Shown: positions 41,907 to 49,163 of the stretch, piece by piece
How the letters are laid out: each line of letters begins with the position of its first letter
Numbering within the stretch: position 1 is the stretch's first letter
Assembly: GCA_018056425.1 (NCBI GenBank)
Contig: JAGPFR010000016.1
Location: 1-49,973, forward strand
Length of the DNA stretch: 49,973 nt
Source: Lachnospiraceae bacterium
Lineage (GTDB): Bacteria > Bacillota > Clostridia > Lachnospirales > Lachnospiraceae
Direction of reading: 5' to 3'
Position numbers and translations under genes: made by a program
Notes under the pieces: model-generated
What the model was told of the DNA's origin: nothing
Seen by the model: only the letters and a program-made list of their open reading frames with translations
Databases searched by the model: none

Positions 41907-41915
41907 GTTTTACCC

Positions 41916-42010
41916 CTTATTCAGAGTTGGCAGAGGTACATAGGACCGATGAAGCCACGGCAACCCCTTAACAGGAAGGTGCCCACCTGAGCGATTTTTC
42001 GAACAATAAG
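41916..42010 (+). ncRNA. SAM-I (S-box) riboswitch aptamer
   Basis: Senses S-adenosylmethionine. P1 pairs CTTAT (41916-41920) with ATAAG (42006-42010). The S-box core is clear: CAGAG followed by the AGAGG region, GGACCGATGAAGCCACGGCAACC, then the AAGGTGCC segment with the pseudoknot partner. It sits between murA and metK, with an expression platform immediately downstream, as an OFF switch. Confidence 0.94.
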
Positions 42011-42032
42011 AGGAAGCTTTACATGACTAAAT

Positions 42033-46130: not shown

Positions 46131-47762
46131 ATGGATAAAGAACTGGTATTGGTAATAGATTTTGGCGGTCAGTACAATCAGCTGGTCGCAAGAAGAGTAA
46201 GAGAAAACAATGTATATTGCGAAATCTACTCTTATAAAACTCCTGTGGATCAGATCAAGGCGATGAATCCCAAGGGAATCATTCTTACCGGTGGACCCAA
46301 CAGCGTCTACGAAGAGGGTGCCGCAGCCTGTGACAAAGAACTCTTTAAAATGGGTGTTCCCGTTCTCGGGCTTTGCTACGGTGCGCAGCTCATGAGCTTT
46401 CTTCTCGGAGGTAATGTCGAAAAGGCTCCCGTAAGGGAATACGGACATACTCCTCTTAAGGTTGATACCTCATCTCCCGTTTTTGAAGGTGTAACGGAAA
46501 ACACAACATGCTGGATGAGCCATAATGATTACATATCAAAGATTGCTCCCGGCTTCAAATCTATCGCAACCACAGATAATTGTCCTTACGCAGCGATCGC
46601 CAATGATGCGGAGAATCTTTACGGATTCCAGTATCATCCCGAAGTTCTTCACACTCCCGAAGGAACCAGGATGCTCGGCAATTTCCTCTACAATGTATGT
46701 CATTGCAAGGGCGATTGGAAGATGAGTTCTTTTGCGGAAGAGCAGATTAAGCTTATCAGGGAAAAGGTCGGAGACGGAAAAGTTCTCTGTGCTCTTTCCG
46801 GCGGAGTAGATTCTTCCGTTGCAGCGGTTCTTTTATCCAAGGCTGTTGGAAAGCAGCTTACATGCGTATTCGTAGATCACGGTCTTCTCAGAAAAGACGA
46901 AGGTGACCAGGTTGAAGCAATCTTCGGACCTGAAGGACATTATGATCTTAACTTCATAAGAGTAAATGCCAAAGACAGATTTTACGGAAAGCTTGCAGGC
47001 GTAACCGAGCCTGAGCGCAAGCGTAAGATCATCGGAGAAGAATTTATCAGAGTATTCGAAGAGGAAGCCAAGAAGATCGGAACTGTTGACTTCCTCGTAC
47101 AGGGAACCATTTATCCCGATGTTGTTGAATCCGGACTCGGCGGAGAATCCGCTGTGATCAAGTCCCACCACAATGTCGGAGGACTTCCCGATTATGTGGA
47201 TTTCAAAGAGATCATTGAGCCTCTCAGAAATCTCTTTAAGGACGAAGTCAGAAAGGTCGGACTTGAGCTCGGCATTCCCGATCATCTTGTATTCAGACAG
47301 CCCTTCCCCGGACCGGGACTCGGCATACGTATCATCGGTGATATTACCGCAGAAAAAGTTGCCATCGTTCAGGATGCGGACTTTATCTACAGAGAAGAAG
47401 TTGAAAAGGCTGCCAACGAGTATGCATTTGAAGCAGCAAAGGCAGCAGGCGTTAATATCGACAGAGATCATCCCGACCATGCGCTCCTCAGAAGCTATTG
47501 GCCCGAGTGGATGCCCAATCAGTATTTTGCTGCTCTTACCAATATGAGATCCGTAGGCGTTATGGGTGATGAGAGAACTTACGATCATGCGGTTGCTCTC
47601 CGTGCAGTCAAGACCATTGACTTCATGACCGCAGAGTCCGCTCAGATCCCTTATGAGATCCTAATGCAGGTTATGAACCGCATCATCAACGAGGTAAAGG
47701 GAGTAAACAGAGTACTCTACGACCTTACTTCGAAGCCTCCCGGGACCGTGGAACTGGAGTGA
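46131..47762 (+). CDS. guaA: GMP synthase (glutamine-hydrolysing)
   Basis: Converts XMP to GMP using glutamine. The 543-residue protein has a class-I amidotransferase domain (residues 1-~190) with C82 in LGLCYGAQ and H169/E171 in FQYHPEV. The ATP pyrophosphatase domain has [18 protein letters not shown], and the dimerisation domain ends [17 protein letters not shown]. It is ~20-30 residues longer than E. coli GuaA because of an insert around residues 420-450 (containing [15 protein letters not shown]). It has its own promoter. The stop is followed by an imperfect hairpin (CCTGCTTA/TAAGGCAGG, ~47764-47793) and then the phased repeat region. Confidence 0.97.
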
Positions 47763-47820: not shown

Positions 47821-48253
47821 CAAATGCTTTGAAGGCAAAGCATCATTTGCTTTCAAATATAAAATTATGCGTTTTACGATGCCCGAAGCCCATTTGATGG
47901 CGGTTTCGGGCATCGAAATCTTTTGAGAATCTTTCTTTTGATGCTATTCGCTTGTCCATCCCCGGACAAGGCATCAATAATCCTCAGAAGCTAATATTCC
48001 GATGCTTTTTCGAGAGCTTTCGTCCCGGCAAAGCATCAAAAATCCCAACATTTTTAATCTTAGATGCTTTTTATGTCTGCGCAAATCTGCGGAGGCATCG
48101 AAAAACATGGACAGCGCAGAAATTGATGCTTTTTGGGTGTTTGGGCATGCGAAGAAGCACTAAAACCACGCGAATCCACAGAAGTTGATGCTTTTTGGAT
48201 GGCCGGGCAAGCGTAGAAGCATCAAAACCATGCGAATCCTCGGAGATTGATGC
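47821..48253. repeat. Phased array of alternating GATGC/GCATC sites, ~62-bp period, eight units
   Basis: GATGC (first copy AATGC) starts at 47823, 47878, 47940, 48001, 48063, 48125, 48187 and 48249. Its reverse complement GCATC starts at 47840, 47910, 47971, 48033, 48095, 48157 (GCACT) and 48219. From the second unit on, steps are 61-62 bases, with 31-32 and 30 alternating between the two orientations. Intervening sequence varies, but the arms often extend the pairing: GATGCCCGAA/TTCGGGCATC in unit 2, GATGCTTT/AAAGCATC in unit 4, TTGATGCTT/AAGCATCAA in unit 7. Units 6 and 7 are the most alike (about 49 of 62 positions by eye). 62 is not a multiple of 3 and no gene is seen. This fills most of the 570-base gap between guaA and the nuclease-like gene. 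Confidence 0.85.
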
Positions 48254-48332: not shown

Positions 48333-49163
48333 ATGAACAGAAATAATTACTCAGGAATGCTCCATTCATCCGGTTTGTATGAGGAGGCCCAAAGACGCTG
48401 TCTTGAGCTATCTGATTGCAAGATGCGTATTGAGAGCGAACTTCGGAAAGCTCCGGCCGGTATCATACACGTAGTGAATAGCGGAAGCAGAATACAATTT
48501 TATAACCGCAAAAACAAAACTGATACATCCGGAAAATATATCCGCAAATCAGAAAAACAGATCATTCGGGCGCTACTTCAAAAAGCGTACAATGAAAAAG
48601 CTTTGAAATTGCTGAATGAAGAAATTGGAAATCTCAATCTGCTACAGAAGAGATCAAACGGTATTTCGGAGAGGATAAGGAAGCTGTATTCCGATCTTCC
48701 GTCGGAAATAAAGGAATACATAAATCCTATCGATAAATCAGATGAGGATTTCATTGCAGAATGGATGAACATACCTTACGATGGAAAAGAGATTTCCGAG
48801 CAAATGCCTGTATTTGTAACTGAGCGCGGAGAAAGAGTGCGCTCCAAATCTGAGCTGAACATAGCAAACAAACTAGCGGAAAAACATATTCCCTACAAGT
48901 ATGAGTGTCCACTGATATTGTCAAAAGGCACGGTGACATATCCGGACTTCACAATCATGGATGTGAAAAAACGGAAAGAAATCTACTGGGAACACAGAGG
49001 AATGATGGACGACAGAGAGTATGCGCGTCAGGCCGTATTTAAAATGAAATCCATGATGAATGCCGGGATCGTGATCGGGAAAAATCTGATCATAACAGAG
49101 GAAACATCTGCAAATCCTTTGGGAACAAATGAGATAGACAAAATGATAGCCGAATATTTCTGA
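48333..49163 (+). CDS. PD-(D/E)XK-type nuclease-like protein of unknown function
   Basis: A 276-residue protein. Residues ~15-135 are strongly helical and charged (YEEAQRRCLELSDCKMRIES, EKQIIRALLQKAYNEKALKL), possibly coiled coil. The C-terminal ~100 residues resemble a restriction-endonuclease-like fold: E174 in RSKSELNIANKLAEK, D205 in TYPDFTIMD and E220 in EIYWEHRGMMDD, then a helix. The E-PD-WEH layout fits metal-dependent PD-(D/E)XK enzymes with His in place of the final Lys. I do not know a named family. AAAGGAAA lies about 7 bases before the ATG. Codon use is more A-rich than in neighbouring housekeeping genes, suggesting later arrival. It sits right beside the GATGC/GCATC array. Confidence 0.72.
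   Translation: MNRNNYSGMLHSSGLYEEAQRRCLELSDCKMRIESELRKAPAGIIHVVNSGSRIQFYNRKNKTDTSGKYIRKSEKQIIRALLQKAYNEKALKLLNEEIGNLNLLQKRSNGISERIRKLYSDLPSEIKEYINPIDKSDEDFIAEWMNIPYDGKEISEQMPVFVTERGERVRSKSELNIANKLAEKHIPYKYECPLILSKGTVTYPDFTIMDVKKRKEIYWEHRGMMDDREYARQAVFKMKSMMNAGIVIGKNLIITEETSANPLGTNEIDKMIAEYF

Follow-up and report, generated by a model that had tools for sequence, protein, structure and literature searches.

Iterons, found at plasmid and phage origins, are direct repeats bound by a replication initiator whose gene is adjacent, and they are often helically phased. In eukaryotes, PRDM9 and the CENP-B/satellite pairs are examples in which a DNA reader and its repeated site change together at a fast pace. 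Among bacterial repeats, REPINs are inverted pairs of a short motif that stand in tandem rows between genes and are dispersed to places without the enzyme gene; their REP units are imperfect palindromes tagged with GTAG, and REP copies are put in the hundreds (PMC8266576, PMC8049555). The associated RAYT enzyme is a HUH (Y1) tyrosine transposase; according to the same sources, each RAYT lineage has its own repeat, the gene is often found at a fixed chromosomal place, and repeats without the enzyme occur (PMC8266576, PMC8049555).

A half-site array upstream of a nuclease-like gene

In the window, by which we mean the whole 49,973-nucleotide stretch of DNA analyzed, GATGC and GCATC half-sites alternate strictly between positions 47878 and 48253. 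Both the array and the nuclease-like gene follow the 3' end of an open reading frame (46131-47762, + strand) that we take, from the initial annotation, to be guaA (GMP synthase). The array has 13 register positions (47878, 47910, 47940, 47971, 48001, 48033, 48063, 48095, 48125, 48157, 48187, 48219, and 48249), 12 of which are exact sites, the tenth (48157) being degenerate; steps are 30-32 bp, with 27-bp and 25-bp linkers alternating, for a period of 62 bp. The initial annotation had described fifteen alternating sites at 30-32 bp, forming a unit of 61-62 bp; the alternation, the spacing, and the repeat length hold up, but the count does not. Within the register we define dimer-like units of the form GCATC-N25-GATGC at 47910-47944 (with an A+T-rich dyad centered at 47927), 47971-48005 (center 47988), 48033-48067 (center 48050), 48095-48129 (center 48112), 48157-48191 (where the left half-site is degenerate), and 48219-48253 (center 48236). 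Another GCATC, at 47840, lies in a terminator-like hairpin just 3' of guaA (47824-47843, + strand), a single match that is about the chance expectation; we excluded it from the register because of this location and because 38 bp separate it from the next site.

The window contains five pairs of the form GATGC-N24-30-GCATC, compared to a mean of 0.55 in shuffled sequences, and none of 100 shuffles reached five; this is the shuffled-sequence check that the initial annotation had proposed, and the array passes it. Likewise, a motif-blind scan of the window for any alternating 5-mer found this array alone; the controls for the scan, 300 shuffled and 94 other 1-kb tiles of the window, contained at most four sites each. 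Because the shuffles and the scan controls stay far below what is observed, the array is not a product of chance. Together with the conservation of the half-site cores against drifting linkers (described below), the shuffle controls refute the idea of chance or of an ordinary low-complexity tandem repeat, to which we assign a negligible probability. A promoter scan yielded one weak match, as chance predicts.

A search of related Lachnospiraceae, also suggested in the initial annotation, did find periodic GATGC arrays in several genomes. We counted a three-site pattern in 31 genomes of the genus: G000, from which the window comes, G011, and G044 have it in abundance, and G015 and G020 in moderate numbers; in the remaining genomes it is at the level of chance, with 0-3 occurrences per strand and 0-2 for a reversed-pattern control. 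The close relative G011 carries the array at the same guaA locus, with 19 sites. When one genome per species (84,980 species) was searched with a four-site pattern, 58 stretches were obtained, 57 of them in records titled Lachnospiraceae, Butyrivibrio, Agathobacter, Acetatifactor, Eubacteriales, or Clostridiales; the sole outlier is a Frankiaceae record with four sites. Over 692 sites in 73 arrays, 255 of 278 steps of one kind measure 32 bp and 296 of 314 of the other measure 30 bp, in a count for which the search pattern favors 30/32 bp, extension was allowed at 28-36 bp, and some loci were counted twice.

In G011, the region from guaA to a glucosidase-like gene (L216, 2295-9404) holds the array, the nuclease gene, a small-protein gene, and a methyltransferase-like gene, then a second GATGC array that is followed by a TetR-like gene and one further gene. 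In G015 and G043, guaA directly adjoins the glucosidase-like gene. The names glucosidase-like, methyltransferase-like, and TetR-like are presumed from sequence.

The nuclease-like family and the arrays beside its genes

The gene downstream of the array (48333-49163, + strand) encodes 276 amino acids from its ATG, comprising an N-terminal part with QYY..YI.K..LAQK.Y (QYY-R---YI-K---LAQK-Y in the family alignment) and a C-terminal PD-(D/E)XK-like domain with RSKSE, PDF, and EH. The PD-(D/E)XK superfamily motif consists of E, PD, and (D/E)xK, and EH instead of ExK is unusual. The C-terminal domain (residues 151-275) matches PDC-S68 of PADLOC with an E value of 2.6e-28. In 22 diverse family members, K172, E174, P204-D205, and E220 are invariant, with EH standing at the ExK place; given that RSKSE, PDF, and EH are all invariant in this set, catalysis is predicted to be kept, and probably is. 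We propose that residues ~15-140 are the putative motif reader. This N-terminal part gave no match to known DNA-binding families and nothing convincing among solved structures. Searches of Pfam and NCBIfam for a family name returned nothing convincing, with scattered weak matches of single members. There are weak matches resembling Holliday junction resolvases, in PHROGs (E 0.0019) and in a T7 endonuclease I region (E 0.8), which we treat as leads only.

The same C-terminal nuclease domain is also found in AAA/RecD-like proteins on plasmids of several bacteria (NZ_CP013539.1, NZ_CP047896.1, and others). One could picture a defense enzyme that attacks foreign DNA, with the arrays acting as sinks on self-DNA that keep it inactive until infection or damage releases it. 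The resemblance of the domain to the PDC-S68 candidates and to these plasmid proteins argues for such a role, as does the invariance of the catalytic-type residues, and it is opposed by the fact that several of the loci are housekeeping neighborhoods. We consider a defense enzyme unlikely; as the purpose of the system, it would be compatible with our preferred reading, that the family protein reads the array.

At E 1e-10, the family is found in 47 of the 295 genomes sampled from the order and in 21 of 130 sampled genera, with up to at least eight matches per genome, making it a multi-paralog family; we gathered 131 family open reading frames, 128 of them distinct. Relatives of the protein are absent from viral contigs, and phage and plasmid records gave partial matches only (3 phage and 8 plasmid). 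Since the four-site pattern, too, is absent from viral contigs, we rejected a viral origin. A short human faecal contig labeled Bacteriophage sp. (L262, MT839528.1) contains a relative of the family (76% covered, 32% identity), and may be bacterial DNA.

The commonest neighbor family of GATGC arrays is the window's nuclease-like protein. In a count from which open reading frames made of array DNA were dropped from the cluster, its gene lies directly downstream of the array at 15 loci, including the window, some of them near-identical. We also scanned up to 1000 bp upstream of family genes, plus 90 bp of the gene itself, for alternating 5-mers of any sequence that recur every 45-85 bp. Sufficient DNA was available for 127 family genes; 77 of them have an upstream array of at least six sites and 8 more have five, compared to at most five sites in 508 shuffles (five only once) and at most four in 128 gene bodies. 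Leaving out the window gene and 13 genes fetched through the GATGC pattern, 64 of 113 genes have an upstream array of at least six sites; when genes are clustered at 60% identity, an upstream array is present in 48 of 84 clusters. In length-matched stretches, arrays of at least six sites occur upstream in 61 of 111 cases versus downstream in 10 of 118. Four genes have arrays on both sides, and in these the motif and the period agree. An upstream array of at least six sites is absent from 50 of the 127 genes: six of these have a downstream array only, and the other 44 have none within the downstream stretch at hand. One GGCTAA/TTAGCC array in the window's genome, with a 74-bp period, lies 3' of a family gene cut by a contig end (L023, G000:C58, 1281-1465), and a family gene of G011 (L015) has a GGCTA array, with a period of 73 bp, 8 bp past its stop codon.

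The motifs at family genes are diverse, and include GATGC, CACGTA, CAGCG, TGGCA, GATAGTAAG, GTCTGC, TTAGC, and GCATG. In G180, all six of the family genes found have arrays, with six different motifs; in G196, six of the seven family genes found were examined, and the five arrays there all have different motifs; in G164, arrays of at least six sites stand at only 2 of 8 family genes. Motifs also change between genomes at fixed chromosomal loci. At 16 guaA loci, the arrays are of the GATGC, CACGTA, CAGCG, or GGTGC type, and L117 is without an array; the initial annotation had named guaA-nuclease synteny in relatives as a check, and 14 of the 15 other loci (G011 included) do have an array of at least six sites, some with other motifs. 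Beside a gene that we presume from its sequence to be lysS-like, the five arrays at six loci have four motifs and periods of 84, 84, 75, 75, and 52 bp, and one locus is arrayless.

Across 63 arrays, motif similarity correlates with the identity of residues 15-140 (r 0.266, partial 0.252, 0/1000 permutations); with the identity of the nuclease domain there is no correlation (partial 0.03, 187/1000 permutations). Against this stands a distant protein (L087, 32% identity) that has GATGC sites as well, though the extended motif of its genome is ATAGGATGCA, versus a T-rich-flanked GATGC in Lachnospiraceae bacterium P6A3. Because upstream arrays accompany this nuclease-like family and because motif similarity follows the N-terminal domain, the family is most likely the reader of the arrays. 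The initial annotation had mentioned the nuclease-like neighbor without linking it to the array.

The geometry of the arrays is quantized. Array periods fall at 52-54, 61-65, 73-77, and 84 bp, corresponding to 5, 6, 7, and 8 helical turns. The best common quantum of the period is 10.6 bp in 65 arrays; with one array per 60%-identity cluster it is 10.7 bp (R 0.859), and none of 2000 uniform sets was as good. When the linker with the more A+T-rich center is taken as the inside of the unit, the median inner gap between half-sites is 28.6, 29.9, and 29.2 bp in arrays of 5, 6, and 7 turns and 32.1 bp in the single 84-bp array, while the outer gap grows with the period class (24, 32, 45, and 52 bp). 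Given that the inner gap is nearly constant at ~29 bp while the outer gap varies, we conclude that a fixed unit is repeated at whole turns. A clear A+T contrast between the two linkers is absent in 17 of 59 arrays, and 5 of the 42 arrays with clear contrast (L025, L116, L126, L139, and L194) fall outside an inner gap of 26-32 bp. A+T content within the short linker peaks at positions 3-4, 12-14, and 22-23, a spacing of roughly one helical turn, and, around the dyad of the unit, more A+T-rich stretches lie at distances of roughly one and two turns. Period class tracks the protein tree, on which it requires 8 changes versus 26.1 in shuffles (0/200 as low); this tree was built quickly and contains near-copies and a few long branches. 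In one 84-bp-period array of G010 (L003, 1110-1189), one outer step is 75 bp versus 54 bp, corresponding to two extra helical turns. Of the two readings offered in the initial annotation, the near-constant spacing of half-sites and the whole-turn spacing of dyads strongly support a phased binding site for a dimeric protein.

The other reading was a chain of RNA hairpins, lying in the guaA 3' region or in the leader of the nuclease gene, and it drew on a claim that the arms of the units conserve their pairing. A long stem (CCCGAA/TTCGGG) in one unit fits this picture, as does the terminator-like hairpin that immediately precedes the array. From related GATGC arrays we took 404 distinct linkers, 195 of 27 bp and 209 of 25 bp, and compared them with shuffled partners. 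Pairing is clearly above the shuffles at the outermost 1-3 positions only, and more weakly so at positions 6-7 of the short linker; the linker middles show none above the shuffles. The claim of conserved arms is therefore not borne out, the CCCGAA/TTCGGG unit being an exception, and the pairing test gives no support to a hairpin chain and largely refutes it. The RNA reading is further disfavored because the helical-turn quantum and the A+T phasing are properties of double-stranded DNA. In addition, some arrays sit between convergent genes, and no Rfam family reaches the gathering score in the array. We judge a chain of RNA hairpins to be very improbable. The sole Rfam match at the gathering score in the window is a SAM riboswitch (RF00162, 63.7 bits) at 41914-42012 on the + strand.

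Array copies away from the family gene

Arrays also occur at places without a family gene. Of 10 genomes tested, only the one with GGTGGCA as its nuclease motif contains pairs of it; they lie beside the nuclease and at three further places, of which two have a single pair. Pairs of GATAGTAAG were found in 2 of 9 tested genomes, both with that nuclease, and also stand elsewhere in the genome. The dispersed copies keep the steps of the nuclease-linked array: 28/24 with a period of 52 bp in G217/G296, 25/29 with a period of 54 bp in G196 (26 in one single pair), and 30/32 with a period of 62 bp for the dispersed GATGC arrays of G000, G011, and G044. G010 has steps of 30/54, for an 84-bp period, at its nuclease as well as after guaA, and no family gene lies within 1.5 kb of the latter array. 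In a profile search of 29 fetched dispersed-array regions, a family gene was found only in two, both of which include the guaA nuclease. By a hand count in which orthologous loci were counted repeatedly, the neighbors of the 15 dispersed arrays flanked by a gene on each side are convergent in 5 cases, tandem in 10, and divergent in none.

The half-sites of these arrays are far more conserved than the DNA between them. At five array loci compared among G000, G011, and G044, one of them the guaA nuclease, substitutions affect 37 of 1021 core positions (3.6%) versus 1707 of 5131 linker positions (33%), with pairs counted in both directions and gapped positions (79 core and 340 linker) dropped; MAFFT may favor alignment of the cores in the most diverged pairs of this comparison. 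An array between glyS and alaS is present in three genomes with the GATGC nuclease and absent in 18 other delimited genomes of the genus, including G043, whose glyS is 99% identical (G007 was not delimited). GACTC sites at this place in G043 were rejected as an array and read as a terminator-like stem. At the same place, G005 and G006 (L261 and L242) share a similar sequence of ~270 bp that is unrelated to the arrays and is possibly another repeat element.

As in REPIN/RAYT, the dispersed intergenic copies are tied to genomes that bear the enzyme, G015 and G020 being the exceptions. Both have GATGC arrays with regular phasing (L293 and L294 in G015; L300 and L301 in G020), and a profile search found no family gene in either assembly (80% and 75% complete). 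In G015, another gene stands directly after guaA, and the guaA of G020 was not found in the 75% complete assembly. These cases indicate that an array can survive its gene or do without one: the arrays are either left over after loss of the gene or have no need of a nuclease.

Arrays that occur away from family genes and persist in G015 and G020 without a detected gene are also what one would expect if another protein, such as a nucleoid, partition, or repressor protein, read them, leaving the nuclease as a passenger or a regulated target; the phased A+T, which suggests a bending architectural protein, points the same way. However, a single nucleoid protein would not recognize motifs that differ from paralog to paralog within one genome, and it is the N-terminal domain of the nuclease that the motif follows and the nuclease tree that the period follows. 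We regard another reader as quite unlikely.

The proposed reader compared with known systems

The best overall explanation, and a probable one, is that the array is the cognate putative binding array of the downstream nuclease-like protein; that this protein is the cognate reader of the array seems very probable. The protein would bind one unit as a dimer, with the half-site, here GATGC, read by its N-terminal domain and the DNA bent at the A+T-rich dyad. Because the dyads lie in helical phase, neighboring dimers on one face may touch, with the array nucleating a cooperative filament; we think such cooperative assembly of dimers on one face fairly likely. Over time, motif and reader change together as the geometry stays fixed. 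We are less sure of what follows. From its anatomy, the array beside the gene may restrain the expression and the activity of the enzyme, and arrays elsewhere in the genome would be copies read in trans. Cutting by the nuclease and subsequent repair would be the likely route by which units are gained, lost, and spread, with copying, again, suggested by anatomy. That the enzyme spreads its arrays in the manner of REPINs is conceivable, though doubtful.

More broadly, we suggest tentatively, with chances that fall a little short of even, that an enzyme in possession of helically phased arrays of its recognition site, which it maintains and spreads, represents a new bacterial class, selfish or domesticated, in which reader and site co-diversify within a fixed dimer geometry and several orthogonal pairs act in trans in one genome. 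With the same reserve, this class might be the bacterial equivalent of drive or satellite systems. This appears to be an entire class of bacterial repeat, so far undescribed, along with the protein presumed to read it. Dozens of natural reader/site pairs sharing one fixed geometry would amount to a specificity code ready to be solved, and spacings of 5, 6, 7, and 8 turns open cooperative assembly on one face to direct testing. If an unrelated enzyme supports a REPIN-like lifestyle, populations of repeats owned by an enzyme would have arisen on more than one occasion. We know of no described family that fits this pairing of array and enzyme; a literature search, with bioRxiv preprints and most subscription papers outside its scope, found no description of such a system, and the pairing in this rumen-type bacterium is apparently undescribed.

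Several known systems share parts of this organization. Like iterons, the arrays are repeated sites in helical phase beside the gene of their presumed binder; unlike iterons, the sites alternate in orientation, the arrays stand at several chromosomal places, and the neighbor is nuclease-like. In CRISPR arrays, direct repeats with acquired spacers stand next to cas genes; here too, short conserved pieces are separated by variable stretches of near-constant length, but the orientation alternates, the motif is 5-10 bp, and the linkers are common to relatives and drift. We rejected both the iteron and the CRISPR readings on the alternating orientation. The PDC-S68 candidates and other large proteins have the same C-terminal nuclease domain; the protein here differs from PDC-S68, whose models span 1202-1273 positions, in having 276 residues, another N-terminal part, and an array. 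With PRDM9 or CENP-B/satellite pairs, the shared feature is the fast co-change of reader and site; those proteins are eukaryotic and unrelated, and the likeness is an analogy only.

The closest likeness is to REPIN/RAYT: inverted pairs in tandem, intergenic position, dispersed copies, one repeat for each enzyme lineage, and a fixed place for the gene to which the arrays are tied. These are the features that would favor an actual REP/BIME array moved by a RAYT-type transposase. However, the enzyme here is PD-(D/E)XK-like and not HUH, and scans of Pfam, NCBIfam, and PHROGs gave no transposase match for the adjacent gene. The arrays also lack the GTAG-tagged hairpin, the conserved part is 5-10 bp with linkers unconserved, and units are spaced by whole helical turns. 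One genome can hold several paralogs, each with another motif, and array copy numbers are far below the hundreds given for REPs. A RAYT gene is single-copy and vertically inherited; family genes occupy the same loci in different genera, though with up to at least eight paralogs in a genome. On the enzyme class and the missing tagged hairpin, a RAYT-driven REP array is extremely improbable. The best reading is of a system like REPIN/RAYT that appears to be built from other parts, a putative PD-(D/E)XK-like reader and its phased half-sites, with binding, cleavage, and role being what we infer from sequence.
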